From a virus: 56,378 nucleotides of DNA. Numbering within the stretch: the first letter of the stretch is position 1; every line of letters starts with the position of its first letter. The DNA is taken from positions 1-56,378 of IMG/VR virus record IMGVR_UViG_3300017779_000007, one strand, 5' to 3'. A program made the position numbers and the translations under genes. Below are positions 3,892 to 56,378 of this stretch, in pieces. The notes below the pieces were generated by a model. It had not been told where the DNA came from. It worked only from the letters and a program-made list of their open reading frames with translations, and searched no databases.

Positions 3892-3904
3892 GTCGGAAGT
3901 CGGT

Positions 3905-3984
3905 AAAAAAAACTTTTCTCTGAGGCTCTTAGTACCTTATAATATATTATAAGGTACTATACGTCTAGGAAAAAAGTTTTTTTT
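3905..3984. repeat. 80-bp palindromic element, copy 1
   Basis: Layout is A-run, CTTTT, a G/C-rich arm, the perfect 28-bp palindromic core AGTACCTTATAAT/ATTATAAGGTACT around a central TA, a second arm, then AAAAAGTTTTTTTT. A second copy lies at 4024-4101 and an inverted copy at 25670-25749. Transcribed either way it would form a long hairpin ending in a U-tract, so it could be a bidirectional terminator. A MITE-like or recombination role is equally possible. Confidence 0.85.
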
Positions 3985-4023
3985 CGTAGTTTAGGTGCGG
4001 GTTTTCCAGCACTCCATTCCCTT

Positions 4024-4101
4024 AAAAAAAACTTTTCTCTGAGGCTCTTAGTATCTTATAATATATTATAAGGTACTATACGTCTGGGAAAAAAGTTTTT
4101 T
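4024..4101. repeat. 80-bp-type palindromic element, copy 2
   Basis: Same orientation as copy 1, differing at a few positions (GTATCTT for GTACCTT; GTCTGGG for GTCTAGG). Its right end overlaps the stop codon of the 86-aa gene at 4100-4102. The 39 bp between copies 1 and 2 resemble the 3' end of that gene, so the copies look like a tandem duplication of gene tail plus hairpin. Confidence 0.85.
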
Positions 4102-4360
4102 ATTGGATTTTAAGTGCCGCTTTTCTAGCATTACGTTTTGCCATGATTTTAGCTTTGTTTTTGCGATAATACTCTTTGTTGTAATTCTTTACGCGATTCT
4201 TGAACGCCTCATACTCCTCCGGTTCAAGGACTTTTGCCACCTCCAATTTCCGAGAGTAGCTGTATTTTGTCTTACGGTAATACTCATTTTGGTAGTCGAG
4301 CCTCTTTTCCCGATTCTTCAAATAGTATTCCTTCTTCTTTTTTGGGTCGTAATTCGCCAT
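4100..4360 (-). CDS. Lys/Tyr-rich basic protein, homing-endonuclease-associated type (86 aa)
   Basis: ATG 4360 is chosen because it follows a promoter-like sequence by 5 nt. The protein is made of repeated YYxKNRxKxxxY and EYYRKxKxK units from residue 10 to the end, strongly basic and helical. Such repeats are common at the N terminus of phage HNH or GIY-YIG homing endonucleases and in small free-standing relatives. No catalytic motif is present. It probably binds DNA; function unknown. The gene is bracketed by hairpin palindrome copy 2 at its 3' end and by the repeat-rich intergenic region at its 5' end. Confidence 0.6.
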   Translation of the reverse strand: MANYDPKKKKEYYLKNREKRLDYQNEYYRKTKYSYSRKLEVAKVLEPEEYEAFKNRVKNYNKEYYRKNKAKIMAKRNARKAALKIQ

Positions 4361-4394: not shown

Positions 4395-4634
4395 TTTTTT
4401 TCTAAATGGTATATTGTATACACTGCACTCCGTGCAAAAATCCGAGACCTACCGGTGGCGTCTCCCGAACCCCGAACCCCAAATCACTATCATACTATCA
4501 TGATCAACGCATCACGATACGACGATGCGTTAGTAGTGGTGAGGGATCAGGGAAGCGGGATTCATGAATCAGGAATCAGGTGTCGGTGGATCGGAAGGAA
4601 GGCGGGGCATTGCTCTGCATCAGGTCCAGTGTCC

Positions 4635-4828
4635 GGTGTCCAGTGTCCGGTCTGGTGTCCGGTCTGGTGTCCGGTGTCCAGTGTCCGGTCTGGTGTCCGG
4701 TCTGGTGTCCGGTGTCCAGTGTCCGGTCTGGTGTCTGGTGTCTAGTGTCTGGTGTCCAGTGTCCGGTCTGGTGTCCGGTCTGGTGTCCGGTGTCCAGTGT
4801 CCGGTCTGGTGTCTGGTGTCTAGTGTCT
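4635..4828. repeat. Higher-order tandem repeat of 38-40 bp units (GGTGTCC-based)
   Basis: Five consecutive units start with GGTGTCCAGTGTCCGGTC, at 4635, 4673, 4711, 4751 and 4789. The order is A A B A B: A is 38 bp ending in CTGGTGTCC, and B is 40 bp carrying GTCTAGTGTCT. So there is a 78-bp superrepeat (4673-4750 and 4751-4828). The basic words are GGTGTCC and GGTCTGGT. Open frames across it on both strands are repeat artefacts. Confidence 0.9.
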
Positions 4829-4853
4829 GGTGTCTGGTGTCTGGTGTTCCCCG

Positions 4854-4888
4854 CTTCCCGCTTCCCGCTTCCCGCTTCCCGCTTCCCT
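4854..4888. repeat. CTTCCCG heptamer tandem repeat
   Basis: Four exact CTTCCCG units and a fifth variant unit (CTTCCCT) follow directly after the GGTGTCC repeat block. They are non-coding, and the palindrome ATCATGAT begins two bases later. Confidence 0.9.
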
Positions 4889-5047
4889 TATCATGATTAC
4901 TGAATATCGAAAAAAGATTCGATTGTGCTTGCAATAGGTCAATTCCTTTTCTTGGCCCTCAGATGCGATCTGAGAGCGTTTGCCCCCGTCCGGCTGGTCC
5001 TATTCAATTTCTTTTCGAAACGCGATCCTGAGCGATTCGATGTTCTG

Positions 5048-5330: not shown

Positions 5331-5395
5331 GCTATTCCCCGCTTCGGCGGGGCATAGCTCACAGCCTCCGGCCATGCCGGAAGTTGCGAGCTATG
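5331..5395 (+). promoter_or_regulatory. Structured leader that can sequester the start codon, copy A
   Basis: GCTAT (5331-5335) pairs with ATAGC (5354-5358) around an inner stem CCCCGC-TTCG-GCGGGG (5337-5352). The same middle strand, ATAGCTC (5354-5360), can instead pair with GAGCTAT (5388-5394), whose last two bases are the AU of the start codon. An inner TCCGG/CCGGA stem (5367-5381) supports that second fold. The two folds exclude each other, as in translational switches. Copy B at 5749-5813 keeps both pairings with compensatory changes. Confidence 0.6.
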
Positions 5396-5740
5396 ACAAA
5401 ACAAGAACAAATAGACATCGTTAGAAACGCAGCACAATCTCTCAACGGAACCCTGATGGGAGATTGGCTCGATGAATCGGTTGCCCAAGCCGCCTCTGCA
5501 TTGGACTCTGACATCAATCCAGCAATTTGGGTTCATGGAATAGAAGAGGCAGTCGCGGTGAAGACATCTACCAAGGTCGCCGAAATACAAGCCTCCTTTG
5601 AAAAACGGGAAGCTGAACTAGCCAAGCGGGAAAGAGACTTCGAAAAGCGCGAATCCGACTTCGAACATTGGAGAGCGGACTTCCACAACACCGTCACCAA
5701 GACGGCCTCCCATCTGGAGTATGTGATCGATCACCTCTAA
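5393..5740 (+). CDS. Coiled-coil early protein, 115 aa, function unknown
   Basis: ATG 5393 is chosen over an in-frame TTG nine bases upstream because its AU closes the conserved leader stem. Residues 1-60 are globular. Residues 65-100 are a charged heptad helix (KREAELAKRERDFEKRE) that should form a coiled coil. No catalytic motif or signal peptide. It is the first gene of the rightward cluster that follows the 1-kb intergenic region. The unrelated next gene has the same leader, so the two are probably co-regulated after transcription. Confidence 0.75.
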   Translation: MTKQEQIDIVRNAAQSLNGTLMGDWLDESVAQAASALDSDINPAIWVHGIEEAVAVKTSTKVAEIQASFEKREAELAKRERDFEKRESDFEHWRADFHNTVTKTASHLEYVIDHL

Positions 5741-5748
5741 CCCTAACC

Positions 5749-5813
5749 GCTACACCCCGCTCCGGCGGGGCGTAGCTCTCAGCTACCGGAAAGATCGGTG
5801 GTTGAGAGCTATG
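5749..5813 (+). promoter_or_regulatory. Structured leader that can sequester the start codon, copy B
   Basis: GCTAC (5749-5753) pairs with GTAGC (5772-5776) around CCCCGC-TCCG-GCGGGG (5755-5770). Alternatively GTAGCTCTCA (5772-5781) pairs with TGAGAGCTAT (5803-5812), covering the AU of the ATG at 5811. ACCG/CGGT (5785-5788 with 5796-5799) stacks inside. Relative to copy A, U-A has become C-G in the first fold, while G-U keeps the second fold, and the second stem is three pairs longer. Confidence 0.6.
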
Positions 5814-6167
5814 AGTAATACTACCACAAAGCAAGACGTGTCCGCCCCTACTGTTGAATTCCTCGCCATCACCGGATTCGGCTGGGCCTATGCTGACTCG
5901 CCAGCGATGGCGATTCAGAAAGCGCAATCGAATATCTCCTACGGGGCGAAGCCTCGTAAGGGATCGAAGAAATGGGAGGAGGCTCAAGACAAAATCCATC
6001 TCTGGATGGTTCCCTCCACTTGGCACGGGACTGACAACTACAGGCCCATCGATGAAGACGGCAACCCTGTTGGAATCCTCCTCCACGGCCATTACAAGCC
6101 CGAAGATAAAACGGCCCAATATGAGGTCATGGACTCGGCCATCAAAGGATGGTTGGAAAACAGATAA
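5811..6167 (+). CDS. Early protein of unknown function, 118 aa
   Basis: The ATG at 5811 closes the leader stem; an upstream TTG is not credible. A soluble alpha/beta protein with aromatic-rich segments (FGWAYADSPAMAIQKAQ near residues 26-42; HLWMVPSTWHG near 64-74). The first segment resembles helices in small proteins that act on repeated binding surfaces, but I recognise no family. There is no membrane segment. It is followed after 23 bp of CCCTGAA repeats by the next gene. Confidence 0.7.
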   Translation: MSNTTTKQDVSAPTVEFLAITGFGWAYADSPAMAIQKAQSNISYGAKPRKGSKKWEEAQDKIHLWMVPSTWHGTDNYRPIDEDGNPVGILLHGHYKPEDKTAQYEVMDSAIKGWLENR

Positions 6168-6403: not shown

Positions 6404-6411
6404 CCCTGAAC

Positions 6412-6455
6412 CCTGAACCCCTGCACCATGCAAGACGCATGGTGCAGTATTCAGG
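6412..6455 (+). ncRNA. Two-stem leader element, copy C
   Basis: Outer stem CCTGAA (6412-6417)/TTCAGG (6450-6455), internal loop ccc/ta, inner 11-bp stem CTGCACCATGC/GCATGGTGCAG (6421-6431 with 6437-6447), 5-nt loop. It ends 53 nt before the DUF932 gene. It shares its architecture with the elements at 7558, 7801 and 8932 although the inner-stem sequences differ. Confidence 0.65.
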
Positions 6456-6508
6456 GGTCACAACGACCCACTGAAACAGAACCAATAAACCAATAGAAAG
6501 AAAAAACT

Positions 6509-7552: not shown

Positions 7553-7557
7553 TGAGT

Positions 7558-7600
7558 CTTGATACACTGCCCCCTCCAGCCGGAGGGGGCAGTAATCAGG
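7558..7600 (+). ncRNA. Two-stem leader element, copy D
   Basis: Outer stem CTTGAT (7558-7563)/ATCAGG (7595-7600), internal loop aca/ta, inner stem CTGCCCCCTCC/GGAGGGGGCAG (7567-7577 with 7582-7592), 4-nt loop. Relative to copies C and F the last outer pair is swapped from A-U to U-A. There is no U-run after it, so it is not a typical terminator. Confidence 0.7.
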
Positions 7601-7634
7601 AATGAGCCTGAAATTAAACCAATAAAGAATAAAG

Positions 7635-7793: not shown

Positions 7794-7800
7794 ACCGGAT

Positions 7801-7843
7801 CTTGATACACTGCCCCCTCCAATCGGAGGGGGTAGTAATCAGG
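7801..7843 (+). ncRNA. Two-stem leader element, copy E
   Basis: Outer stem CTTGAT (7801-7806)/ATCAGG (7838-7843), loop aca/ta, inner stem CTGCCCCCTCC/GGAGGGGGTAG (7810-7820 with 7825-7835). A C-to-T change relative to copy D is tolerated as a G-U pair. The 3' flank AATCAGCCTGAACTTAAACC also matches copy D closely. Confidence 0.7.
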
Positions 7844-7873
7844 AATCAGCCTGAACTTAAACCCTAAAAATAA

Positions 7874-8386
7874 ATGAGAGAAATAATCGAAGTAAAAGGG
7901 AACTGCACCCTCAAAAAGCAGGGAGGTCGCTACGTCATGACTAACGACTCAACAGGTGCTTGTCATAGCATCTCGGCCCGACCGGACATCAGCCCTCTTA
8001 AGAGGCTGGTGGCCCACTGGGAATCGTTCCTCAAATTACAACTCGATGGAATCGAGTTAAAAGACCTGAACGCTTCCACTCTGAAGGAAGCGTTGAGAGA
8101 GGCAAAGATGGTCGCCCTCGATAACGGAGACGGTGGGGACTACTGCCAGACGGCGGGACAACTCGTCCTTGTAGACTCAGACGGTGAGCGGATCGGTGGG
8201 GGGCCAAGCGTCTACTTTGACGGTCAACCTAAATTGCGAGACATCCGCGAGCTGTTTGAAGACCACCCCAAAGCCGTGACCGTGTCTGTCGAAGGACAAA
8301 CCCGCTGGTATGGTGAGGGGAACGCTGCCCAGCGTTTCGAGGACTCCGAGATCTGCGACTGGTGGGTATTGAACATCGTCCGATAA
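7874..8386 (+). CDS. Early protein of unknown function, 170 aa
   Basis: ATG 7874 with leader CCCTAAAAATAA and no SD. The N-terminal 35 residues are beta-rich. A helical middle (about 43-80) is followed by a Gly/Asp-rich section (GDGGDYCQTAGQLVL) and an aromatic C terminus (CDWWVL). No recognised domain, signal peptide or membrane helix. Its leader element E is nearly identical to that of the unrelated 52-aa gene upstream. Confidence 0.7.
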   Translation: MREIIEVKGNCTLKKQGGRYVMTNDSTGACHSISARPDISPLKRLVAHWESFLKLQLDGIELKDLNASTLKEALREAKMVALDNGDGGDYCQTAGQLVLVDSDGERIGGGPSVYFDGQPKLRDIRELFEDHPKAVTVSVEGQTRWYGEGNAAQRFEDSEICDWWVLNIVR

Positions 8387-10652: not shown

Positions 10653-13600
10653 CTACTCAGATTCTGTAATAGGCCGGACAGGAATGTAGCGGTTGAGCTT
10701 TGAGGCGTGGTCGTAGACCTGCTGCGCTCGCGCCCTACCATATTCATCAGTCCTTGGGTCGAGCAGACCCTCGATAATGTATTTGAACGACGGCTTGTCC
10801 ATGTAACCTTTACTCAGTAGAGCGACCCGATCTCGACCCAGCTTCTTATCCTTCATCCCCTTGAGGAGGTCGGTGTTAGTGAGTCCGAGAGAGGCGAACC
10901 CTTTATTGATCCGCATCAGTTCGTAGTTAAGGAGGCGTCGATCCTCGATGTTCTCATCGATGATGTCCGCTACATCTCCGTCGCTCATCGGGACGTTACG
11001 CTTCACCGCGTTGAGTCCGCTCTTCACGTTGTTGTATCGCTTGTTTAGATCCAGCAGGTATCGCGAATACTGTTTCTGGAGATCAACATCATGAACACGC
11101 GCAGGCATCGCGCCGTCCATAATCTCAAGAGTCATGCCCTTCAGAGATCCGGTTGACCAGCCCTCGACAAAATCTTTACCAAGTCGCGGAGCGTATGCCT
11201 CCTTGGCGATGTAACCTAAGATCTTCGATCCAGCTTCCACCGGACCATCGGCCCCCTTATTCCAAATTGGTTTACCCGTTGACGGGTTAAGGTTTCGGCG
11301 AGCCTCAGACACTGCTCCCGCGAGAATCTGATCGTCTAAGTATTGATCCCTCACCAAGCCTAGCGCGAGAGCGGCTCCCGCTTCGGTGAACTCACCGCTG
11401 CGGATGTTCTCATACGCTCGCAGGAATGGATCGACCAGTAGCGAGTATGGATTAACGTAAGTAAGGTCAACCGACTTCAGCTCACCGTTCCATCTGTAAT
11501 AGAAGAACGTATGCCCTCTGAGGTAATCTGGAATGGATGCACGCATGGCCTCGTCCTCCTCATCTCCGATGCCCGAAAGAGCAGCGAGGATCATAGGAAG
11601 AGCGGAAGAAAGAACTCCTATCGTTCCGGTCATCCAGATCATTCTAGTTTTACCTCTCCGAACCAGAACAGGATTGCCGCTGGCGATCTCCTCACTGGCG
11701 AGCTTGTACGTGTTGATCACGATTCGCGGAACCTCCATCTTGAATCGGATGAACGGGGCGAACAGCAGGCCGAGGCCAGACTTCGTGTATGCTGCGACGG
11801 CTGGCGGTGCTTGGCTGTATGCCTGTGAGGTCATGACTACCTTGCGAGCGGCCAGACGCTTGATCTGCGTGTCGCTCATATTGGCTAGGTTGTTGACCCT
11901 CACTTTGCCGTCCTCGACCGTGCTTGTGTCGGCGGCTTGGGCTTCCTTCAGAATTGCCAACTCATGGTTGTAGTAGGCGACCTTGTAGGCGGCGTCGAGA
12001 GCGGCGGATAAATCCTGTGCCTTCTTCTCAATTATCGCTAGAGCCTTAGTGGCTTTATTGAGTTTCGTCTTTTCACCTAAGTCTTCGATCTGCTTCCTGA
12101 TGCCGTCGGGTGTTATCCTACCGTTCAGGAGGTCTCTCATAACTCCGGCGCGGAGTTCGTCGCCCTTGATATTCAGGCCGATAAGCTCATTAAGCTCTGG
12201 GTCAATCTCACCTTCGTTAAATGGGTTTAACACGCCGAAAGTCCCTTTCGCCATTTCAGCGATCATCTTATCGTAGCGGAGAAATCCCTGTGAGGTTCCG
12301 AACAATAAGTTACCGATTCCGTTTCGTAAGTAGAATCCGATGGAGCCTAGAGTCTTAGCTGCCATTGCCTTACCGCTCAGGTTAGCGGCTAAACCAACAG
12401 CTCCCTTAACAGCCTTCTCCGCTGTGTCGGCGTAATCCATCGAGAAGGAGTCATTGAGCGTAGTATCCAGAAGCTTTTTGAATTCAGGATCTACCTGCAT
12501 TCCTGAGAGGGGGTCGTTCTTACTCGGCGCACCCGATCTGGCGGCGACGAAGTTAGCATACTTGACGCGGTTCTCTTTGGTAGCGAGCTTCTCTTCCACC
12601 GTGACCATGACGCCCGTTTCCTTGCCGAATGCCACCAGTTGGTTCAGGAATGCCTGCTGCGAAGCGAGTGTCGCGACGGTCGAGTAAGTCCGAAGAATCA
12701 AATCAGTGCCAGCCTCCGACCCGATTTCGCCGAGAAGATTTCGGATCTCCACCGGCAAATCTTTGCGTCTTTTCAGGTTGTCCTCGATCATCTTGTAATG
12801 TTTAGGCGAAGCAGTCGTCGAGTCTCTGCCTCCTTCGTCATACCGCATCAAGAAAGTGTTAAGCACCTCTTGCGCGTATGATTTATGTGGGTAGCTTTGG
12901 TTCTCTTTTTCGAGGAGTATACGAGCTTCAACCTCGGCACGCGACTTGTCCATGCCGCCCTCAACCAGCTCCTCAAACTTCTTATCTTTAAACTGTTTAT
13001 TAAAGAACCTCATAGCCTCGTCCCTCACAACTTGATAATTGGGATCTTCCCTCACCTTCTGGAGGTAAGACGAGTCGGTGAACATCTTATAACTACGGGT
13101 AATGTAGACTCCTCCGGTCTCAGAGATCTTGACTCCAATATTATCGTCAAGGCCCGACTTAACGAGTTTCTTCTGCAACGGGATGATCAGCCTCTGCCGT
13201 ATGTCGATAATGTGAGCGGCAAGCTTCGGAGATTCCTTAGCGAGTTCTCTCAGAGCGGCGTCGCGGTCAGCTTCCCTAGAAGTGATAGCCTCTTCGTAAG
13301 CTTTATCGGTGGCCTCAGTTCTCGCATTATGGGCGAGTCCCTTTAGGGAGTCAGCTTCTTCCTCAGTGATTAAGCCTACTTTGCGCTTCTTCTCTGCGTC
13401 GGCGTGCGCGGCTTCGTAATCTTTATCAATATCTTTAAGAACTTCCTCAGTGACTATGTTACCTGTGTAGTGTCCCTGCGCGAGAGCGATCAAATCCATC
13501 GGCGCGTATTCGTAACCGCCGTAGTTTTCCTCAATGAGTTTATCCATCTCCTGTTTATAGGCGACGACGTTAGCCTCAGTAAGTCTCTTGTAAGCGTCTC

Positions 13601-16600
13601 GGTTCTGGATTAATCGGCGGAAGGCTTCTGGAAGCTCGCCAGCGAACACCTTATTCAGGAACTCCATGATGAAGTTCTGTGGCTTTCCGGTCTCCAGCTC
13701 GTATACAGGAATCTCAAGGAGATCGACCACTGCGGCGAAGTTTATGGTCGAACCTGTCGGCTTGCTGGACGGAGCGGCTGCGGCTGCGGTGGGGGCTGAA
13801 TACAGAGGTAGTTTTACGGTCTCAACTCCCTCGTCCGCTTTTCTAAATATAAGTTCGCGTTGAGAAACACCAACGGACGGTGGGAAGATGCTGTCTTCCT
13901 CCGATTTTTTAATTGGGTCTGTGTTGCCGTCATATGGATCGGCTGCTTTTTTGGGGTTAGGTTTCTTAGCCGAGTAAACTACGTCTTTCCACAGGTTGGA
14001 CTCACTCAGAACGTGGACTACAGGTGTCTCACCCGAAGTGCTGCGTATAGAATACGGGTATGAGTCATGGAAGTCAGTCTCGACGGCTTCGACCTCTCCC
14101 TTCATCGAGAGAACAGCGTATACCCGCCCAGAGGCTTTCTTATCCATTTGCTGAAATTGCTGGAAGGTCTTGACCAGAGGCTCTGCAAAAAGATCTGCCA
14201 TGCCCTGCATGACTGATGCCATTTTGAGGTTACCTGTAGGTATTAAAGATTTATTGTATAGGTTCTTGTCACCAGCCAGAAGGTTAGCTATGTTCAAAGC
14301 CTGATTTTTCTTTTTATCGAAAGCAGCTTTTTCCTTTGGGTTGAACTTCTTCTGAACTTCCGCTGTAGGCAGTTTCATGCTGTCAGCTATTGCTGACGCT
14401 ATCTGAGCGACAAAGGAACCGCGTTGTGGGAACACTGACTCTTCAGGGAGGAGATTCTTTTTCATCTCCTCTATGTTTTTAGCCAGTCCGTCTTTCAGCT
14501 TCAGTTTCCTTGAAAATTCTTTGATGGTGGTCGTCTCGACTCCTGTATCTTTGTCTTTCTTTTTAAGAACTAATCTCTCTTTACTGGCGTTAACAATAGC
14601 ACGGTTTACGACCGCCTCAGTGATCCCATACTTCTTGGGGTTCTTGGCTAGAGTGGCGAACAGGTTGACCGCTCCCGTAGCCATTGTTGTGGAGCTAAAC
14701 ATCTTCTCGATGGGAGCGGACGTGAGAGCCATCAGAATAGTTCCGTTGTTGCGCTTGGATATCTTGTTAAGGTTTTCCGCCATGTTCACGGCGGCGTCCT
14801 TGGTAGATGCCCAGAAATACCCTTGGTCACCGAACATGACTGGGTAGTAAACACCTCCCTTGCCGTCTACGACCTTATCGCCCTCGACCTCCAGTGTGCC
14901 TGCCATCGCGCCGTCAGGTTGGTGGAGCATGACGGCCATTCCCTCAAACTGGTCGAGGGATTGCTGTATCTTAATGTATCCGTTCTTGATCTTCTCGTAA
15001 AACTTCCCGTCCTCTTTGACGTAGATATGTTTAACTATGGGGTCACTCGCACTGGCGATTTCTGGTGGGATCTCGGCGGGTGTAGTAGCACCAGCCACCG
15101 GAGCAGAGTAAAGGATACTGCTTTTACTTTCATCGAACCGCTGGCTAAGTGGGATCACGTTGCCGTTAGCGTCACGGGTGATAGGGTCTGCGGATTTGAG
15201 TTGATCGGGTGACCTTACGACAAGGTGTTCCGTGTCGTGAAAACTGAACGCTTCCTCCAAGTCCTCATAGGTTGTTATGGTCTCGTTCGGGTTGTTCTCA
15301 AGGTAGAGTTCCGCGCCCCCGAGAGCAGAGTCCTTTTTTATCACGAAGTAACCGGATCGTTCATTTTGTCCATCTAGCGACACAGGCTCCCCTTGGTCAA
15401 AATCCCGCTGCTGCTTCTGGGTAGGGAACCCAGCAGGTTCACTAAACACAACCGTATCGAACCCAGAAGGGAAGCCATCCGTCTCCTCTCCACGAGCCAC
15501 CATTTGTTGTGCTGTAACTCGATCAATGGTTCGTCCTTTCTTGACGAAAAGGTCGAGAACCTTGTTGTCGGTCCGCTGATATCTATAGGACGAAAATGTG
15601 TCGGCTTCATTCGATACATGAAAACCGCGAATATTGGTGTCTGGATCAAACTCAGGGATCTCGCCTCGGTCGAATGCGTCGAAGGTTGCTCCAGTTGCGT
15701 GTTTAGTGCGGGTTTCATACCCCGCTGCCTTAGCGCGTCGTTCCACCATCGTCCTCAACTCAAGCCAGTTCTTCTCAGGATCTTTGGCAAGCTCTAGATA
15801 CTCAACGTCTTCTACCGGAGCAGACGCTAAACCAACGAAGTCCTGATTAACGACCTCAAACATTTGGAAAACTTCCGTCGGGTTCTTGGTATCGAACGCC
15901 ATCTTCGTAGGCTGACGGACGAACCCAGCTTCGATAGCTCGCATCTCAATAATCAACTTATTGAGGGCAACATCTGCTGCGGGTCCGATCTGTTCACGCT
16001 TGGCGACCCATCGGTTGATGATCCCCCTAAAGTAACGACCTAGAATTTTAAGTAAGGAAGGCTTGGATTTCCAGAATTGGTTATCATCCTCGGTAGTAAA
16101 GCCCCGTGTGACCTTCTGGAAGTGCATACGAAGTTTCTCTTGTGCCAACCCATACTTAGCTTTTGCGACCACTTGAGGGTCTGACGACTGAAGGCTCACT
16201 ATCGCAGCCGCAAGTCTTGGTTCGTTTCCGACATGGTATTCTTTAGCGATGTCCACGAAGTCCGAGTCAGAAAGACTGTTGATGTAATTCTGAACCTCTC
16301 CGTCGGTCATGGAACTCCAACTGGCACTATGCACTAACTCCTCGTTGATTATAACACCAGCGATTGCGCGTCCGGCGATGTCCCCAACGCCGCCTGTCTG
16401 GCTCAACATAAGAGGGAGGTTGATATATACCGCTGAAGAATCAGACTGCACAAAAGAAGAACTTCCATCGGACTCAGTAACAAATTCTAGTTCCATGCCG
16501 AATGGAATCAGACCTCTGAGATAATTCAGTAGGGGTAATGCTTTAGAGCGGTCTTCCTCTGGGATAAGTGAGAGGAATTTTTCGCGCTCTACCTCGTCTT

Positions 16601-19600
16601 TAAGACGCTTCGATTCAAGACGTTTTTCCTCTGTATCGTCCTGCATCTCGCGCAACGCTTCTCTCCTCTCCGCTTTCCTCTCAGCCATATATTCAGGAGA
16701 GAAAACTGGTGAACTGGATAACGTCGCGTTATTAGCGATTGCCCCAGCCAAAGCTCCGGCGTTGGTAGGCGGACCCTTGCGGGGATTGCTCCCCACGTCG
16801 ATAATATCTCCAAGAGACTCCGCTACTTCTTTAGCAGATCCTATCCCCACATTCGGGAACAACATAGCTATGTTGATAAGGAAGCTATCAAAGGGTGAGG
16901 AGTTGTTAGTTGGTTTTAGATTTTTGAAGTGCTTCTGAACGTCCTCCGACAACAAGAACTGAGCGGTGAACTCGTTAAGATCGACAAGAGCGTTCTCAAG
17001 AGATGGGACGGGTCCGCTGCTTTCTTTTTGCGATTCGTAGGTTTCTTTCGCGAAGTCGAAAACACTGGACAACTGGTTAACTATACCTTGTTTACTTGAG
17101 GGTGGATTTGAAATAGTTCCAGAAATGAATGCGTGGACATACTCCTCAAGTAATGTGTTGACGAGACCTCGACCGTTTCCAGACGTGACATTGATGAACA
17201 CACTGTCCGAGCCGTCTTTTCCCTTAACGTATTTTCCTGCGATGTCGGCTTTTGCTTCGCCCATCACAAACTTAATCTTCTTGATGAAGGCGGTGTCGCG
17301 CAGCAGCAAGGTAGCTACAAATTTATGGGAAGGGATCTTTGAATTTTTAGCGACTTCTTTAAGGGCTTCAATAACACTGTCGGGGTTCCCACTCTCAAGA
17401 CCCAGTCTCTCAATATCAGCCTTGTTCTCAGCCGTAATGACTGCCCTTTCGGCGGCAGAGATGTTAGATCTCGATAGGTGGGTTCGGACTGCTTTGGTTA
17501 AAGCAATCATTGTGTTCTTCGCCTCTTCCGCAGTGATCTCTGTTTCCGCGCCTGCATTGAACTGAGCTTGGAAATCGCTCACAGCGTCAGAGTTCTCGTA
17601 GCTAGCACCGTCTGAGGGGGTCACTAAGCGGACGAGTTGTAGCGCGTTCAGGAAATCTTCGCTGCCGATTAATACTTTGTCCTCCAGAATCTCCACAAGG
17701 CTATTAACAGACGGCCTAGTGTCGCCGTTTCCAGATGAAAGCCATGAAGCGAATATCCCGAACAGGTCTTTAGAACTCGCGTTCTCAACCATGTCTTCCA
17801 TCTCAGGATCTTCCAATACGTCTTCAAGAATAACCTTGACGATTCCCTTGCGTAAGTCTGGGCTAGTGTTTACGGTATTAACCGCTTTTTTCATCGCCCC
17901 AGATACTGTGTTACTTATATCTTGTGGGGAAGCGAAGTCGCCTACAGGGTTTTCACCGAAGTTAAAAACCCAACTACTTACTTTAGGGTTCTTGAATTGA
18001 TCGGGAGTTATATCGAACGGAAGGGTAGAGGCCGCTCTCTGTTGTCTAAGGGAGGTGGCTTTTTCTTGCTGATTCTTAAATTCGTTCGCGGCTTTTTTAA
18101 GTAGCGTATCGAAGGTCGGCGTTGTGTTATTAGCGAAGTCTGGGTTGTTCAAGAGTTTCTGCTCTACGAACAATCCGAGAATCGTTTCTCCCGTAAGCTC
18201 TTTGTTAGATTCTACTTTAATGAACGGGAGTAGTTTTTGAGCCGCTTGATCTACATTCTTAGATCCCGTCTGGGCTACCAGCTCATCGAAGGGAGTGGTA
18301 GGGTTGGTTCCTTCTCCGAACGCTTCTACTTTTGCGCGAAGACTAAACAACTGTGCGTTAAATAAGAATTCTTGTTTAGCTGACTCAAATGCCACCATGC
18401 GGAACTCCTCGTTAAGCTCCCCGTCGTTGGCTTCAAGGAGGGCTTGGGCGTTGCGATTCGTTTCGTCTCCGGTCTTCTCTAGCTCAAGGGCGAACCTATT
18501 GATTTTTCTTTTGATCGACGTAGTATTAGAAAAGTTTCCATCAGTAATTGGGCTTCCATTTTTGTCAAAGTCTGGAACACCTTCAGGTAAGGTCGCAGGC
18601 TTGAAACGGATACTAGCTATAGCAGAAGCTCTCGTATTGTTTGGCCCAATCGAACTTACGCCCCTCGCGTTAGTGACCTTAGACTCTAGGAGAGTGCCGT
18701 CGGCAGTAGGTCCGACCACGTCACTAACCATCTCATTTTTAATTCGGATAGCGGGGTTGAGGTTTGCTCTATTGAAACTACGAGGAACCTTAACGGTTTT
18801 ACCAGCCCTCAACATCTCAATAATAGAGATCGGGTCGTTGTCGAACACGCCATTACCTCTATCATCAACGAAGAATTTAACTGGCTGGGTAACGGTCTTA
18901 CCGGATACGGGATCGAAGTAAGTCCTGAAAGGTCTCTTCTCATTATCAGGGTCGAGCTTCGCGTTCTTTGGGGGAGCGAGTTTAGGGTAAGCTGTATAAA
19001 CAGCAGAAGACACAAACTCTGACGCGGACTGGCGAGACGAGTCAGGAGGCATAGGTAAACCGTAGTTTACGTTGGGGTCAGGATTAATCGGAAACCCATT
19101 ACCCATCGCGAAGCCAATAAGCCTGTTAGCTTTCTCCTCTGCGTCAGGCCCACTAAAGGGAGACTCTTCATACCTAAATGTATTGGGTGACGGCCTTGAA
19201 GAATACCTCTTGGATTTAGTTGGGTCGAATCCACGGACGCTGTTGTTAGCGGAACTTATGTTCGTTCTGGACTCGCCTTGAAGGGTGACGCCAGCAGATT
19301 CTGCGTTAGCCTGTTCTTGAGTAAAGTCGATATAAGGTCCGGTGTAGTCCTTAATTTCTCTAGGGGATTTACGACCGTAATCGAAAGGAGTCTCTAGAAC
19401 TGTGACGGGTTCACTATTTCTAACGGAGACGCTCTGCTGGTTTCTGATGTTCTCTAAAGCAATTTCAACGTCGAGTGGGCTAGAATCGTTCAGGGACTGC
19501 AAGAACACCACCGGATCTACCTTCTGGTCAGTAAGTGCGAAATCAGGAGTAGTAGGTGACTGCGCTGCAACTTCAAGGTTTTGTTCCTTTTGCGAAATGG

Positions 19601-22418
19601 CTGCGCTCTCCTGCTCAAGCTCTATTCTCCGTTGTTCGCGAAGGGCGACCTCGGCTTCCCGCTCCTCCTCCTTTTTAGGTAGGGTCGATTCGTCGCTAAG
19701 TTTAGATATCTCTTGGGCGATCTCCTTACTTCTTTTGGCGTTTTCTGTTCTTAGTAATGACTGCTCAGTAACAGTGGATGTTCCTTCTGAGGGGGTTGGT
19801 GCTAGTTCAGCCGCAGCCTCGGCTGCACCACGACTTTGGGCGCGGGTCGTAATTATCTGACGAACCTGTTGGGCGGTGAGTGGGCTACCAGTTCCTTCAA
19901 GTTCAGAAGAAACTTGTTCAGCGAACTCATTCGCCATCCGAATACGACTTTCTCGCTGATCCATCGGAGTATAACCTACGAATCTTGCACCGGCCTGAAT
20001 AGTGGGGACACCGCCACCGAGAATACCGCCAACTTGTGCGGCGTGCCACACCTGCGTCATCCTCTCAAGCATCGGCGTGTCCTGATTCAGTGCTACGTCT
20101 TCAACGAATGAATTAACTAACTGATCGAGACCTTCTTCCAAACTTTCATCGACTGCATTTTTTGCGATCTTCTTCCCAAGAGCAAAAGCCCCATACTTCT
20201 TGATGGAGGCATTCATCACGGTTTTCATTGCTCCCGCGACGAGCGTATCAGAGATTCCCGACGTGTTGCCCATCGCTTGGAAAACCGCTTTAGATTCTCT
20301 AAAGGTCATGCCTTTAAGCAAGGCGTCCTCAACACCTCCGCGACCTATCATACTGAAGCCTGCGGTAATTGCACCTGTGATCGCACCAGAGGTTAGGGCG
20401 AATCCTAACGCCCTATCGTGGGCTTCATCTTCGCTTAGTTCTGGGTCTTTGCGTAGCTGGTTATAGAGCGAGGCGTAAGTCATCGCGCCACTACGAGTAG
20501 CTGCTGGAACGAACCCCGCTACCCCTATATTAAACTTACTAGAAGCTACTTTGTTAAATGCTTCGATGGCTTCGACGGTCTTGGCGCGACCTCCTTTTTC
20601 TAACGACTCCCTGATCAAGACATTAGCCGCCTTGTCTGCCACTTCTTTATAACCCTGTTTCGTGCTGGCTCTAAGGACATTACTGGTAAGTGCTTTAGCG
20701 AATCCCTTGGCGGTGAGCTGCGCTCCACCTTTTACAGTAGATCTCAAAGCTAAGTAACCCGCACCAAGAGTGCCACCGGAAACTGTAGCTAAAGCAGTCG
20801 TAGCGGCTATATCCACGATAAGGGGCGCAACGCTTTCGGACACGTCTTGAAACAAGCCATACTGCTCACCGAAAATTTGGGCAACCTCGCGGCGGTCCGA
20901 TTGTCTCTGAGCAGTATTAGCGAGACCGTCTTTGGCCCAGTCTGCCCCCATAATAGCGGGAGCGGCATACACAAGAGTGGCGACAGAATCCCAGACAGAG
21001 TAAGCAATTCCCTTGGCACTGTCAGCGAACTCATTGAAGTTCTCGTCCTTAGCGACGAAATCGTCGAAGATGTCTAGGTCATCTCGTCCGGCCTGCCTGC
21101 CATCTATAAGGGCTTTCGCCCAGTCATCGCCGACGGCGGACTCAGACAAAAGCTTGCTGTAACTCGCGAAGTTTTGTTTGAGAACATCGACTCGTTTCTC
21201 GGCAAAAAGTTTTTTCTGCTGGGCAGTAAGTTCAGGATGCGCGGCAAGAGTGTTAATCATGTCCTCTTCACGGGCAAATACTGCGGGGTTCAGGACTGGA
21301 CCAAGAGCGGTCTTGTAAAGGTTCTTACCCGCTTCAGACGGATCTTGATGCAGCTTAAACGTCCCGCGTCTAGCCCCCTCATGGATAACATGGGCCTCGT
21401 AAGCGTCGCGGACGTCTTCGGCCTTATAATTAGCCCCAGAACTGTTCAGCTTATCGGTGATATACTCAACCGTATTGTCAAAGGATTGTCGGCTAGCGAT
21501 ATAAACTCTTTTTTTCTTGTCGTTACTCTCCTCTGATTCAACCCCAACGGCTGTCATCAGATCGCTCAGTCCTCGCGTTAGGGATTGCGTCGTTGCATCC
21601 CAAGCATTCTGACTTTCTCTGGCGAGTTGAAGGGTATGTCCGGTGACGTGTTCCGCAACTGAGGAGTCCTGTTGGGCCAACTCAGCGATGCTTTCAGAGA
21701 TCTCTGCGATCTGCTTGAATTTGTAAAGTTTGATGTCGAGACCAGCGACAGGAGAAAGAAGTGCTTGAGCAGCCAGACCGTCTTTAAACGACACACCTCC
21801 GATCTTGGAGGCTTTGATCGCCTGATTTACGGTCATGTTCTCGGCGGCGTCACCGACTAATAGTTCGCGCTCGCCAGTTTCATTAGTGACGTAAGCCAAC
21901 GGAATCTGGTTACTCTCAACCAGATTTCTCTTAACCTCGTCAAATCGGCGATTAACAACTTCTTCAGACTTTAGTTTAAGACCAGCTATTTTATCTTGGT
22001 AAGGCTGGACAGTTCCACCAGCGGCGACGACTTTCTCGCCTGCCTTATACTCGGTGAGGGTCATCCAGTCTTCGTCGTCACTGTTCAGTCCGGCGCGAAC
22101 ATACTCAAACTTTTCCTCAAACGATGGCTCCTTGGTGGCCGTAAGAGCTTGAATAGCTTCTTCGTCTACCACACCGAGGTCAGCTAATTTAGAATTCAGT
22201 GATCCACTAATCTCTCCTTCGACACTAGGGGTGTAAGCCCCCTGTTCAAGGTAGCCCTCACGGACGTAATCCGAATACTGGACGTAGCTCTGAGGGTCAG
22301 CTTCGGTTAATTGATTCTCCTCTGACCAAACAGAAAAGGGTTTAAGTTCGGGTGGTTTAGGAGCCTCTGTGATCAGAGACTTATCAAAGTCGGTAAGGGA
22401 TGGATTCAAATCAGTCAT
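10653..22418 (-). CDS. Giant polyvalent internal virion/ejection protein, 3921 aa
   Basis: Probably carried in the capsid and injected with the DNA. Visible parts: unknown N terminus (1-450); hydrophobic segments near 472-492, 530-555 and 670-690; coiled coil about 886-943; two zincin-like units with EEYVH (about 1757-1761) and EELVH (about 2025-2029); an ADP-ribosyltransferase-like polyvalent domain about 2235-2430, opening with KHATGATFDAFD and ending LKSADPITRDANGNVIPLSQ, the signature tail of ART-PolyVal domains; a region of unknown type (2440-2870); and a long helical C terminus with a membrane segment about 3595-3615 and IPDYLRG, resembling the LPD38 domain. YSAP-type motifs mark the junctions. 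Start MTDLN has no SD. The ejection role is inferred from size and context. Confidence 0.8.
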   Translation of the reverse strand: MTDLNPSLTDFDKSLITEAPKPPELKPFSVWSEENQLTEADPQSYVQYSDYVREGYLEQGAYTPSVEGEISGSLNSKLADLGVVDEEAIQALTATKEPSFEEKFEYVRAGLNSDDEDWMTLTEYKAGEKVVAAGGTVQPYQDKIAGLKLKSEEVVNRRFDEVKRNLVESNQIPLAYVTNETGERELLVGDAAENMTVNQAIKASKIGGVSFKDGLAAQALLSPVAGLDIKLYKFKQIAEISESIAELAQQDSSVAEHVTGHTLQLARESQNAWDATTQSLTRGLSDLMTAVGVESEESNDKKKRVYIASRQSFDNTVEYITDKLNSSGANYKAEDVRDAYEAHVIHEGARRGTFKLHQDPSEAGKNLYKTALGPVLNPAVFAREEDMINTLAAHPELTAQQKKLFAEKRVDVLKQNFASYSKLLSESAVGDDWAKALIDGRQAGRDDLDIFDDFVAKDENFNEFADSAKGIAYSVWDSVATLVYAAPAIMGADWAKDGLANTAQRQSDRREVAQIFGEQYGLFQDVSESVAPLIVDIAATTALATVSGGTLGAGYLALRSTVKGGAQLTAKGFAKALTSNVLRASTKQGYKEVADKAANVLIRESLEKGGRAKTVEAIEAFNKVASSKFNIGVAGFVPAATRSGAMTYASLYNQLRKDPELSEDEAHDRALGFALTSGAITGAITAGFSMIGRGGVEDALLKGMTFRESKAVFQAMGNTSGISDTLVAGAMKTVMNASIKKYGAFALGKKIAKNAVDESLEEGLDQLVNSFVEDVALNQDTPMLERMTQVWHAAQVGGILGGGVPTIQAGARFVGYTPMDQRESRIRMANEFAEQVSSELEGTGSPLTAQQVRQIITTRAQSRGAAEAAAELAPTPSEGTSTVTEQSLLRTENAKRSKEIAQEISKLSDESTLPKKEEEREAEVALREQRRIELEQESAAISQKEQNLEVAAQSPTTPDFALTDQKVDPVVFLQSLNDSSPLDVEIALENIRNQQSVSVRNSEPVTVLETPFDYGRKSPREIKDYTGPYIDFTQEQANAESAGVTLQGESRTNISSANNSVRGFDPTKSKRYSSRPSPNTFRYEESPFSGPDAEEKANRLIGFAMGNGFPINPDPNVNYGLPMPPDSSRQSASEFVSSAVYTAYPKLAPPKNAKLDPDNEKRPFRTYFDPVSGKTVTQPVKFFVDDRGNGVFDNDPISIIEMLRAGKTVKVPRSFNRANLNPAIRIKNEMVSDVVGPTADGTLLESKVTNARGVSSIGPNNTRASAIASIRFKPATLPEGVPDFDKNGSPITDGNFSNTTSIKRKINRFALELEKTGDETNRNAQALLEANDGELNEEFRMVAFESAKQEFLFNAQLFSLRAKVEAFGEGTNPTTPFDELVAQTGSKNVDQAAQKLLPFIKVESNKELTGETILGLFVEQKLLNNPDFANNTTPTFDTLLKKAANEFKNQQEKATSLRQQRAASTLPFDITPDQFKNPKVSSWVFNFGENPVGDFASPQDISNTVSGAMKKAVNTVNTSPDLRKGIVKVILEDVLEDPEMEDMVENASSKDLFGIFASWLSSGNGDTRPSVNSLVEILEDKVLIGSEDFLNALQLVRLVTPSDGASYENSDAVSDFQAQFNAGAETEITAEEAKNTMIALTKAVRTHLSRSNISAAERAVITAENKADIERLGLESGNPDSVIEALKEVAKNSKIPSHKFVATLLLRDTAFIKKIKFVMGEAKADIAGKYVKGKDGSDSVFINVTSGNGRGLVNTLLEEYVHAFISGTISNPPSSKQGIVNQLSSVFDFAKETYESQKESSGPVPSLENALVDLNEFTAQFLLSEDVQKHFKNLKPTNNSSPFDSFLINIAMLFPNVGIGSAKEVAESLGDIIDVGSNPRKGPPTNAGALAGAIANNATLSSSPVFSPEYMAERKAERREALREMQDDTEEKRLESKRLKDEVEREKFLSLIPEEDRSKALPLLNYLRGLIPFGMELEFVTESDGSSSFVQSDSSAVYINLPLMLSQTGGVGDIAGRAIAGVIINEELVHSASWSSMTDGEVQNYINSLSDSDFVDIAKEYHVGNEPRLAAAIVSLQSSDPQVVAKAKYGLAQEKLRMHFQKVTRGFTTEDDNQFWKSKPSLLKILGRYFRGIINRWVAKREQIGPAADVALNKLIIEMRAIEAGFVRQPTKMAFDTKNPTEVFQMFEVVNQDFVGLASAPVEDVEYLELAKDPEKNWLELRTMVERRAKAAGYETRTKHATGATFDAFDRGEIPEFDPDTNIRGFHVSNEADTFSSYRYQRTDNKVLDLFVKKGRTIDRVTAQQMVARGEETDGFPSGFDTVVFSEPAGFPTQKQQRDFDQGEPVSLDGQNERSGYFVIKKDSALGGAELYLENNPNETITTYEDLEEAFSFHDTEHLVVRSPDQLKSADPITRDANGNVIPLSQRFDESKSSILYSAPVAGATTPAEIPPEIASASDPIVKHIYVKEDGKFYEKIKNGYIKIQQSLDQFEGMAVMLHQPDGAMAGTLEVEGDKVVDGKGGVYYPVMFGDQGYFWASTKDAAVNMAENLNKISKRNNGTILMALTSAPIEKMFSSTTMATGAVNLFATLAKNPKKYGITEAVVNRAIVNASKERLVLKKKDKDTGVETTTIKEFSRKLKLKDGLAKNIEEMKKNLLPEESVFPQRGSFVAQIASAIADSMKLPTAEVQKKFNPKEKAAFDKKKNQALNIANLLAGDKNLYNKSLIPTGNLKMASVMQGMADLFAEPLVKTFQQFQQMDKKASGRVYAVLSMKGEVEAVETDFHDSYPYSIRSTSGETPVVHVLSESNLWKDVVYSAKKPNPKKAADPYDGNTDPIKKSEEDSIFPPSVGVSQRELIFRKADEGVETVKLPLYSAPTAAAAAPSSKPTGSTINFAAVVDLLEIPVYELETGKPQNFIMEFLNKVFAGELPEAFRRLIQNRDAYKRLTEANVVAYKQEMDKLIEENYGGYEYAPMDLIALAQGHYTGNIVTEEVLKDIDKDYEAAHADAEKKRKVGLITEEEADSLKGLAHNARTEATDKAYEEAITSREADRDAALRELAKESPKLAAHIIDIRQRLIIPLQKKLVKSGLDDNIGVKISETGGVYITRSYKMFTDSSYLQKVREDPNYQVVRDEAMRFFNKQFKDKKFEELVEGGMDKSRAEVEARILLEKENQSYPHKSYAQEVLNTFLMRYDEGGRDSTTASPKHYKMIEDNLKRRKDLPVEIRNLLGEIGSEAGTDLILRTYSTVATLASQQAFLNQLVAFGKETGVMVTVEEKLATKENRVKYANFVAARSGAPSKNDPLSGMQVDPEFKKLLDTTLNDSFSMDYADTAEKAVKGAVGLAANLSGKAMAAKTLGSIGFYLRNGIGNLLFGTSQGFLRYDKMIAEMAKGTFGVLNPFNEGEIDPELNELIGLNIKGDELRAGVMRDLLNGRITPDGIRKQIEDLGEKTKLNKATKALAIIEKKAQDLSAALDAAYKVAYYNHELAILKEAQAADTSTVEDGKVRVNNLANMSDTQIKRLAARKVVMTSQAYSQAPPAVAAYTKSGLGLLFAPFIRFKMEVPRIVINTYKLASEEIASGNPVLVRRGKTRMIWMTGTIGVLSSALPMILAALSGIGDEEDEAMRASIPDYLRGHTFFYYRWNGELKSVDLTYVNPYSLLVDPFLRAYENIRSGEFTEAGAALALGLVRDQYLDDQILAGAVSEARRNLNPSTGKPIWNKGADGPVEAGSKILGYIAKEAYAPRLGKDFVEGWSTGSLKGMTLEIMDGAMPARVHDVDLQKQYSRYLLDLNKRYNNVKSGLNAVKRNVPMSDGDVADIIDENIEDRRLLNYELMRINKGFASLGLTNTDLLKGMKDKKLGRDRVALLSKGYMDKPSFKYIIEGLLDPRTDEYGRARAQQVYDHASKLNRYIPVRPITESE

Positions 22419-25669: not shown

Positions 25670-25749
25670 AAAAAAACTTTTTTCCCAGACCTTTAGTACC
25701 TTATAATATATTATAAGGTACTAAGAGCCTCAGAGAAAAGTTTTTTTTT
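25670..25749. repeat. 80-bp palindromic element, copy 3 (inverted)
   Basis: Inverted relative to copies 1 and 2, with the same core AGTACCTTATAAT/ATTATAAGGTACT and the same A/T-tract ends; the G/C-rich arms are exchanged. Its right edge overlaps the terminase stop codon (25748-25750). As RNA it would be a long hairpin with a U-run, able to end the terminase transcript. Confidence 0.85.
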
Positions 25750-52062: not shown

Positions 52063-53039
52063 TAGGGATATTCACGATAAAACTGTAAAGCGAACTGGTT
52101 AGGGGACATTTCACCCAAACCACCCCGCTCTGCGAGCATGGACTTCATATTCTCAAGCTTTCCTCGGTCCGTGCGGGACTTTGGATCGAATGAGGTTCCA
52201 TGAGTATTCTTGAACAGAGCAATCGCTTGGTCTTCGTATCCTTCAGACACAACTTCAGCTTTAGGAGGAGCTGCGGCAATTTTCGCCTCACCCGCAGGCG
52301 TGTCGTAGTATTCTTCAAACAGCTCATCTGAGGTTGAGATACCCTCCGTTAGGTCGGATACCTTGTCTCCGACGGCTCCAACATACTTGTCTTTCAAAGA
52401 CTTTGCAGCTCCTGCGGGGTCTTTCAAAGATTCTGCGACTCCGCCCAACTTTTCTTTCAGGAGGTCTCCAAGTGCAGAAAAGTCGAGACCTTCGCCTCCT
52501 GCTTTTCTTGCTGCTTTTCTTGCTGCTCCTGCTGCTCCTGCTCCTGCTCCTCTTGCTGGGGCATTCAGAGCTTCCTCGATTCTATCGCCTGATTTCGTCT
52601 CAAAATCTTTTCCTTCTTCTAAGAGACGGCCAATTTTTGCGTCTTTTGAGGCGAGCGCGATATCCGCGATCTTTTCAGCGTCAGTCTTTTCCTTCGAAAT
52701 CGCGTCGAAACCTGCTTTAGCGTAGCCCATCTCGTTAACAACCTCATCGGCGTCAGGTAGCAGATTCGCTGGGTCTAGTAGGCTCACTGAACCTCCTTTT
52801 TCCCCCATTCGGATCTCGGGTCCATAATCATCTGCAAGCTTCGCTGCTGATTGGAGAACTCCTGCGGTGGCTCTACCTGCATCGGCTGCTGATCGTTTAA
52901 CGGCCCCAACGGCTTTGGTAGGTAGTGCTAGGAGCGATAGAATATCTCGCTCTCCTGCTTCCAGCATAGCTTCTGCTTTGGGGTTCTCCTTGAAAAAGTC
53001 GTTTGTGACTTTACCTAATGTTTCAAGTAACTTTGACAT
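52062..53039 (-). CDS. Ala-rich virion-associated protein, 325 aa
   Basis: Alternates helical segments and Ala/Gly-rich linkers (ARGAGAGAAGAARKAARKAG near residue 160-179). C terminus NQFALQFYREYP. Weakly resembles the 283-aa protein upstream of the capsid gene in composition, so both may be internal or minor head proteins. No motif recognised. It overlaps the 107-aa gene by one base. A terminator and 25 bp of A-rich leader precede it. Confidence 0.55.
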   Translation of the reverse strand: MSKLLETLGKVTNDFFKENPKAEAMLEAGERDILSLLALPTKAVGAVKRSAADAGRATAGVLQSAAKLADDYGPEIRMGEKGGSVSLLDPANLLPDADEVVNEMGYAKAGFDAISKEKTDAEKIADIALASKDAKIGRLLEEGKDFETKSGDRIEEALNAPARGAGAGAAGAARKAARKAGGEGLDFSALGDLLKEKLGGVAESLKDPAGAAKSLKDKYVGAVGDKVSDLTEGISTSDELFEEYYDTPAGEAKIAAAPPKAEVVSEGYEDQAIALFKNTHGTSFDPKSRTDRGKLENMKSMLAERGGLGEMSPNQFALQFYREYP

Positions 53040-53064
53040 AATAAGTGTTTCTTTCTGTAAATAA

Positions 53065-53103
53065 GAACCCCGCTGCCCGTTTTAGAGACAGGCAACGGGG
53101 TTC
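53065..53103 (-). terminator. Terminator after the capsid gene pair
   Basis: GAACCCCG/CGGGGTTC with further GTTGCC/GGCAGC pairing (one mismatch) forms a strong hairpin, followed on the minus strand by TTCTTATTT. It lies between the 73-aa gene and the 325-aa gene and would limit read-through from the capsid gene. Confidence 0.75.
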
Positions 53104-53128
53104 ATGTTAAGTGATACGTGATTCGGGG

Positions 53129-53350
53129 TTAAGCAAAAGCTCCAGATGCGATTGAATAAGCGAAATCCTCCACCTTGATGGTTTTAACTTTCTGCTCCGA
53201 GACATCGTATACTTGAATCAAATCTTTTTTAGAGAGTTCAGTTACAGCGTCAGAGTCTGATGCGGGAGTCAGTGCGTCGGGAGTAGACCCGTCGGAAGAT
53301 CCAGAAGCTACCAGTTCTTCAACAATCGGTGCGTCGTCTAGTGTTGGCAT
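53129..53350 (-). CDS. Small acidic protein after the capsid gene, 73 aa
   Basis: Disordered acidic first half (SSDGSTPDALTPASDSD), then KKDLIQVYDVSEQKVKTIKV and a hydrophobic end. Located between capsid and terminator, at the place where decoration or head-completion proteins are common. No family recognised. Confidence 0.6.
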   Translation of the reverse strand: MPTLDDAPIVEELVASGSSDGSTPDALTPASDSDAVTELSKKDLIQVYDVSEQKVKTIKVEDFAYSIASGAFA

Positions 53351-53372
53351 AATTATATAAGTGTTACGCTAA

Positions 53373-53406
53373 GTAATGTTCCCGAAATCTGTTTCGGGAA
53401 CATTAC
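53373..53406 (-). terminator. Perfect 15-bp hairpin behind the major capsid gene
   Basis: GTAATGTTCCCGAAA/TTTCGGGAACATTAC with a 4-nt loop, 14 bp after the capsid stop. There is no U-run, so it may stabilise the capsid mRNA 3' end or attenuate rather than fully terminate. Confidence 0.7.
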
Positions 53407-53419
53407 CTAACTAGATTAA

Positions 53420-55979: not shown

Positions 55980-56378
55980 TTACACCGCGCCTAAAGCAGC
56001 GTTCACGCGCTCCTCAAAGCTCGCGTTGTCCGATACTCCGGCTCTGGCCGCTGGTGCTTTCGTCTGACCAGACATCGCTGGCTCCGCTTCCTCATATTCA
56101 GCGAGGCGGTCGGTCAGCGACTCGACTTCCTTACGCATCTCCAGATACTGCCTTACAACAGTCGGGAACACTTGAGCGGATACCGCGTTGTAGGCATGGT
56201 CAACAGGGTGCAGGACAGAGGGATCGGTCTCGGACGCCTTCTGCTGGATAGCAGACATATCGAGGCCGTCGATTGCTTGAAGAAACGGTAACTTCTGCTG
56301 GACCCGCTCGACGACATTCCTTGTGATGTTCTGCCTAAGCTGGGCGTTGTCGGCTGCGAAAGCGGCCTGCTGCCGCTC
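55980..56378 (-). CDS. Scaffold-like capsid assembly protein, C-terminal part (gene split by contig ends)
   Basis: C-terminal continuation of the gene that starts at 903; positions 56256-56378 repeat 1-123. The unique part (55980-56255) encodes the last 91 residues: MSAIQQKASETDPSVLHPVD, a helix RQYLEMRKEVESLTDRLAEY, and a short helical end (SFEERVNAALGAV) of the kind scaffold proteins use to touch the capsid protein. The ATG at 56258 is an internal Met, not the true start. Confidence 0.75.
   Translation of the reverse strand, partial: ERQQAAFAADNAQLRQNITRNVVERVQQKLPFLQAIDGLDMSAIQQKASETDPSVLHPVDHAYNAVSAQVFPTVVRQYLEMRKEVESLTDRLAEYEEAEPAMSGQTKAPAARAGVSDNASFEERVNAALGAV
56256..56378. repeat. Terminal direct repeat (right copy), circular-assembly overlap
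   Basis: Exact copy of 1-123. Removing one copy restores one uninterrupted scaffold gene and gives a circle of 56,255 bp. Confidence 0.9.

Follow-up and report, generated by a model that had tools for sequence, protein, structure and literature searches.

A portable RNA leader predicted to bury the start codon of unrelated small genes in a group of related phages

Host takeover is a frequent role of the proteins encoded by variable small genes beside the core genome of phages, and the control of newly captured phage genes is largely an open question. A leader that occurs twice before small genes of one virus bears on this question, and here we ask what it is and what it might do. The window (the whole stretch of DNA that was analysed, a virus record of 56,378 bp) carries a 123-bp direct repeat at both ends, positions 1-123 and 56256-56378 being identical, and is probably a complete, circularly assembled genome. 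Up to about 4.4 kb its genes point leftward, and between 5,393 and about 10.5 kb they point rightward; the start of the rightward operon is preceded by a non-coding stretch of about 1 kb that holds tandem GTGTCCGGTCTGG-type repeats and CCCGCTT repeats (4624-4890). Long near-palindromes (AAAAACTTTTCTC..GTACCTTATAATATATTATAAGGTAC..GAAAAAAGTTTTTT), which are possibly two-way terminators, lie between gene blocks at 3904-4011, 4023-4130 and 25670-25748 and recur in most relatives.

An initial annotation of this DNA had placed two copies of an RNA leader at 5331-5395 and 5749-5813. Both copies are present there, are 78% identical across 68 nt, and contain every pairing that was named. As members of the wider family described below, the copies span 5337-5396 (copy A) and 5755-5814 (copy B), and the features of this region are as follows:

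5331-5335, plus strand: upstream arm of copy A, GCTAT, alternative partner of ATAGC at 5354-5358
5337-5352, plus strand: hairpin P1 of copy A, CCCCGC-TTCG-GCGGGG, flush against P2
5353-5395, plus strand: hairpin P2 of copy A, ending in the start codon (ATG 5393-5395)
5393-5740, plus strand: gene A, 115 aa, first gene of the rightward operon
5749-5753, plus strand: upstream arm of copy B, GCTAC, alternative partner of GTAGC at 5772-5776, starting 8 nt past the stop codon of gene A
5755-5770, plus strand: hairpin P1 of copy B, adjoining P2
5771-5813, plus strand: hairpin P2 of copy B, ending in the start codon (ATG 5811-5813)
5811-6167, plus strand: gene B, 118 aa, conserved in four phages at 47-89% identity and always behind a leader copy

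In both copies P1 (CCCCGC-loop-GCGGGG) is followed, with zero spacer bases, by a P2 of 19 pairs whose 3' strand terminates in GCUAUG, the AUG of which is the start codon. The two stretches fold far better than their shuffled counterparts (z = -4.9 to -7.1; 0 of 200 shuffles equally stable), and in each the minimum-energy fold consists of P1 and the AUG-covering P2, the fold with the upstream arm being less stable. The two genes that follow are non-homologous, as had been claimed (best blastp match 15 aa, E 0.12), and no homologue of gene A was found among the phages compared.

The suggestion that the leader belongs to no named RNA family held up against Rfam 15, where the window gave no match at the gathering threshold and neither copy matched at E up to 5. 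ARAGORN found no tRNA where the sequence GGGGCGUAGCUC had seemed similar to a tRNA 5' end. Relatives were obtained by a pattern scan (three further records) and by a portal-protein search (about 20 related contigs); of the 52 contigs returned by a first pattern scan, only L003, L020 and L021 were true relatives and the remainder were chance matches. With a covariance model built from 12 copies, together with a scan for ATG-ending hairpins, we assembled 18 sense-strand copies of the leader, spread over seven related phage records: two in the window, five in G001, three in G002, two in G003, two in G005, one in G008 and three in G022. The search for homologues upstream of start codons that had been proposed earlier thus yielded a family in which P2 covaries (see below). 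All 18 copies end at the ATG of an open frame, although one in G002 precedes merely an 11-codon frame, and together they stand before 14 unrelated gene families, whose members gave no confident Pfam match except for an AAA ATPase in G005. Antisense images aside, the phage sequences scanned contained no other strong ATG-ending hairpin and a single weak one at threshold.

The leader had no match in 50,697 named phage records, and searches of named collections with the leader, with the portal-like protein and with gene B found no phage relative. A genome scan did recover a contig of an Opitutae metagenome-assembled genome (MAG) that carries leaders and a 90% identical portal protein. Since the covariance model matched nothing else in 286 host-class genomes than this one MAG, on its phage contig, the element appears, as far as sequence searches reach, to be confined to this phage group, which probably infects Opitutae bacteria, a host assignment that depends on one MAG bin. 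The portal-like gene of G002 (52340-54595) and its counterpart in the window are 97% identical, apart from a single in-frame TAG inside the G002 gene.

In P2, for which 17 distinct sequences were compared, pairing holds in 95% of cells; changes on both sides affect 9 of the 19 pairs and 27 cells in total, values that none of 500 shuffles reached, although the copies are related by descent and such counts are not independent. When the P2 partners were slid by 1-3 columns as a control, only 28-43% of cells paired and 1-3 pairs changed on both sides. In several copies the helix has been rewritten together with its partner strand, as in G001 (GUAGCCUUCACC/GGUGAAGGCUAUG; CUUCACC/GGUGAAG), G005 (CAUAGCUGACAGC/GCUGUCAGCUAUG; CUGACAGC/GCUGUCAG) and G022 (CAUAGCUGGAAACCUU/AAGGUUUCCAGCUAUG; CUGGAAACCUU/AAGGUUUCCAG). 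The rewritten G022 copy has a different P1 sequence as well (CGCGGC-loop-GCCGCG), still flush with P2. The comparison of copies shows the P2 helix to be kept by compensatory changes while its sequence, its loop and the downstream gene vary, and the earlier claim that structure but not genes is conserved extends in this way from two genes to 14 unrelated families. The invariant part of P2 is CRUAGC paired with GCUAUG, whereas its middle is wholly replaced in G001:1875, G005 and G022:1202, and such wholesale replacement argues against a sequence-specific contact there by a protein or ligand of the kind that the initial annotation had proposed. Model position 32-49 of P2 holds a wobble-like U.G or C.A rather than a Watson-Crick pair in 16 of the 18 copies.

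The histories of leader and gene disagree. The starts of gene B in the window and in G022 are 95% identical while their leaders share 76%, and the window's gene B leader is 93% identical to that of an unrelated G001 gene; likewise its gene A leader is 95% identical to the gene B leader of G001. Two leaders in G005 are identical over 66 nt, to one base past the AUG, before different genes and with unrelated flanks, and homologues of two genes that follow the AUG-burying leader (type I) were found behind leaders of another kind (type II, below) in G003 and G012. These comparisons show leaders passing from gene to gene as whole modules, with the AUG as their boundary, that can be parted from the coding sequence behind them. 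A similar mobility is known from the cassettes of T4-type phages, which, reportedly after Arbiol et al. 2010, are repeated units beside variable small early genes that move by recombination and combine an early promoter with a stem-loop. The present unit also moves between unrelated genes; unlike those cassettes it has a hairpin that would lock the start codon, and an early promoter was not found (sigma-70 consensus only).

Such shuffling raises the possibility that the leader acts chiefly as DNA, as a conserved site where homologous or hairpin-dependent recombination exchanges small genes, with only secondary effects, if any, on translation. Leaders that are more alike than the genes they join, and the identical pair in G005, are what this would produce. 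Homologous exchange, however, would favour identity, and compensatory change is seen instead. Of the two strands, the sense P2 folds more stably in 14 of 18 copies, G-U outnumbers A-C mismatches by 25 to 13 (AUG column left out), and every copy has its hairpin end at the AUG, a feature for which a DNA site would have no use. With no linked recombinase known, we consider this explanation distinctly improbable.

The start codon itself lies inside P2 in 18 of 18 copies. In a 37 °C energy model, opening positions -12 to +6 costs 15.6-26 kcal/mol in the leaders, against a median of 3.2 and a maximum of 12.2 kcal/mol in 35 other genes of the window, whose starts were picked mechanically. Only 2 of the 35 other (non-leader) window genes tested have a Shine-Dalgarno-like site, and A makes up 50% of codons 2-11 after the leaders versus 38% in control genes. 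An upstream in-frame UUG was considered as the real start and rejected, since three copies read UUG UGA GCU AUG, with a stop in that frame. The AUG would thus be held closed in the mRNA and translation kept low or delayed, although ribosomes and helicases could open the lock, its closure being a matter of energy parameters. Heat is an improbable key: the predicted unpaired probability of positions -6 to +3 barely changes from 5 to 60 °C, the region being about as closed at 60 as at 5 °C, which runs counter to the proposal of a thermosensor and makes that role unlikely under the folding model.

The initial annotation had further proposed that the leader alternates between two mutually exclusive folds. 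The AUG-covering fold is the half of this claim that stood, being conserved and covarying in the 18 copies; the other half, the upstream arm, fared less evenly. The arm (GCUAC/GCUAU and variants) forms at least 4 bp with UAGC in 14 of 18 copies, and in 9 of the 17 distinct copies the native upstream sequence makes the AUG cheaper to open than do at least 96% of shuffled sequences; the most favourable copies pay no more than 4-6 kcal/mol for the AUG-open fold. Because of this excess over shuffles the alternative fold is, in terms of the folding model, no accident of two copies. Thirteen copies closely follow an upstream gene, and in 12 of them the stop codon lies 9-15 nt ahead of the start of P1; with the footprint of a ribosome the arm and hairpin would sit at about the leading edge of one that is terminating.

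These observations suit a two-state switch, in which the GCUAY arm extends P1 by way of UAGC and frees the AUG, and in which upstream translation or transcription kinetics decides the state; where a copy lies between cistrons, a ribosome terminating on the upstream gene would run up to the arm and thereby set the state. Against this, covariation of the arm helix beyond chance was looked for across the family copies and not found, the arm's target UAGC is already fixed by the P2 fold, and the neighbouring CCCTAAC is conserved as well as the arm, such that descent may explain it. The arm is moreover absent from G001:500, both G005 copies and G022:1202 (three of these four lack a close upstream gene or are identical to such a copy), most copies that stand first in an operon thus being without it, and P2 remains the favoured fold in every copy. 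We therefore judge a true two-state switch to be unlikely.

Sister phages provide a natural comparison: in operons of this kind, their small genes are preceded by different repeated hairpin leaders. A type II leader (CTCCCTTTWAAAGGGAG; CAGCAGCC..GCTGCTCCCTTTWAAAGGGAGTGGC..) is found in L003/L093 (G003), G012 and G016 with open, A-rich initiation sites, and further repeated hairpin leaders precede small genes in G004 (CCCCTTTAGGGG) and G007/G009 (ACTAGTGNCCACTAGT). In G004, G007, G009, G013 and G014 we observed one leader family per lineage (CCCCTTTAGGGG, ACTAGTGNCCACTAGT, CGGGACATGTCCCG, GAAACGCC..GGCGTC). The window has two further hairpin regions: a duplicated leader at 7557-7633 and 7800-7874 (ACTGCCCCCTCC-GGAGGGGGCAGT, then TCAGG..CCTGA and an A-rich stretch before two genes, with the AUG open), and two hairpins at 6409-6508 (CTGCACCATGC..GCATGGTGCAG, TTCAGGGGTC..GACCCACTGAA) before a DUF932 gene, which are kept with changed sequence in G001 and G002. 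The sister-clade families have no sequence similarity to the AUG-burying one, and they differ from it in that the AUG follows unpaired, A-rich sequence and is mostly opened at a cost of 0-5 kcal/mol (type II in G003, G012 and G016, and the families of G004, G007/G009 and G013). The AUG-burying leader is an exception, since the other families in sister phages leave the AUG open.

The same comparison bears on the idea that the hairpins serve chiefly mRNA stability or processing between cistrons, and that burial of the AUG lowers translation only weakly. Intercistronic hairpins do seem general here, given that related phages place their own repeated leaders likewise before small genes. Yet those families keep a single-stranded A-rich stretch in front of an easily opened AUG, and only in the present family does the helix include the start codon, which leaves this account highly improbable to our minds.

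Closed initiation sites are known from other systems. Sequestration of the initiation site blocks initiation at T4 genes e, soc, 49 and I-TevI (PMC3014915), and these hairpins, with that of Aeh1 mobE, resemble the present one as phage mRNA structures that sequester the Shine-Dalgarno sequence and/or the AUG and reduce 30S binding (PMC3014915). With leaders of the T4 gene e type and with those activated by RNase III, ours shares an initiation region within a stable, long helix. The T4-type hairpins are single and gene-specific, lie around the Shine-Dalgarno sequence and are released by late promoters, whereas the leader described here is reused before 14 unrelated gene families and lacks a Shine-Dalgarno sequence, and no promoter was found in its helix.

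Timing of the T4 gene e type, in which long early transcripts are locked and a second, later promoter inside the leader gives short unlocked ones, is established for T4 gene e itself, where late promoters lie in the 5' strand of the hairpin (PMC3014915). In our leaders that strand is GC-rich and rewritable (G005, G001:1875, G022:1202), which speaks against a conserved promoter, and no sigma-70-like site was found between 4850 and 6600 of the window with the sigma-70 consensus, other promoter types being possible. The scanned proteins yielded neither a phage RNA polymerase nor a sigma factor, and we give such timing only a very slight chance. An N4-like virion RNA polymerase with hairpin promoters, brought to mind by a 3,921-aa protein (10653-22418), was likewise rejected: no polymerase domain was found in comparisons with Pfam, PHROGs and PDB sequences, and the protein matched nothing but a polyvalent ADP-ribosyltransferase domain, and that below threshold.

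Some route of opening must exist, for a permanently closed AUG would be strange to keep. In E. coli adhE the initiation region is occluded until RNase III cleaves (PMC5371410), and in lambda cIII RNase III binds and shifts the fold of an occluded initiation region (PMC2777011). Our leader is like both in having its initiation region occluded in secondary structure, and its possible second fold recalls the alternative folds of cIII; unlike them it has a longer helix that ends in the AUG itself and belongs to a shared, shuffling family, a role of RNase III being suggested here by analogy. The enzyme is present in the likely host MAG and absent from the phages. It is an economical candidate because of the long helix, the freely varying sequence, its presence in the presumed host and the adhE and cIII precedents.

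Taken together, we would put at about even chances a reading in which a portable RNA leader locks the start codon of whichever gene follows, with a common opening event for which RNase III is the first candidate. P2 would keep the AUG closed and translation low or delayed, in a phage that otherwise uses unstructured initiation sites free of Shine-Dalgarno sequences. With less certainty, one shared event would open all locks together. The first candidate key is host RNase III, which would cleave or bind the long P2 helix as in adhE and cIII; the second, an alternative for intercistronic copies, is branch migration, whereby the GCUAY arm invades P2 and claims its 5' strand. No element common to all 18 copies that would mark a key was identified. 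Such a lock may serve to hold several small, probably potent proteins at a low level until some shared signal or processing step occurs.

A broader proposal, which we hold to be doubtful though worth stating, is that the portable lock marks a regulon: captured genes would come under one common key and be freely swappable, and sister phages would have replaced the lock by other leaders. If true, accessory genes could be swapped freely and retain the same translational control. The 18 natural variants, with helices rewritten and yet complementary, form a ready set for direct tests. A shuffled, AUG-burying leader before 14 gene families suggests a portable brake on protein production, and a shared leader of this kind would supply captured genes with ready-made translational control in a phage that initiates without Shine-Dalgarno sequences.
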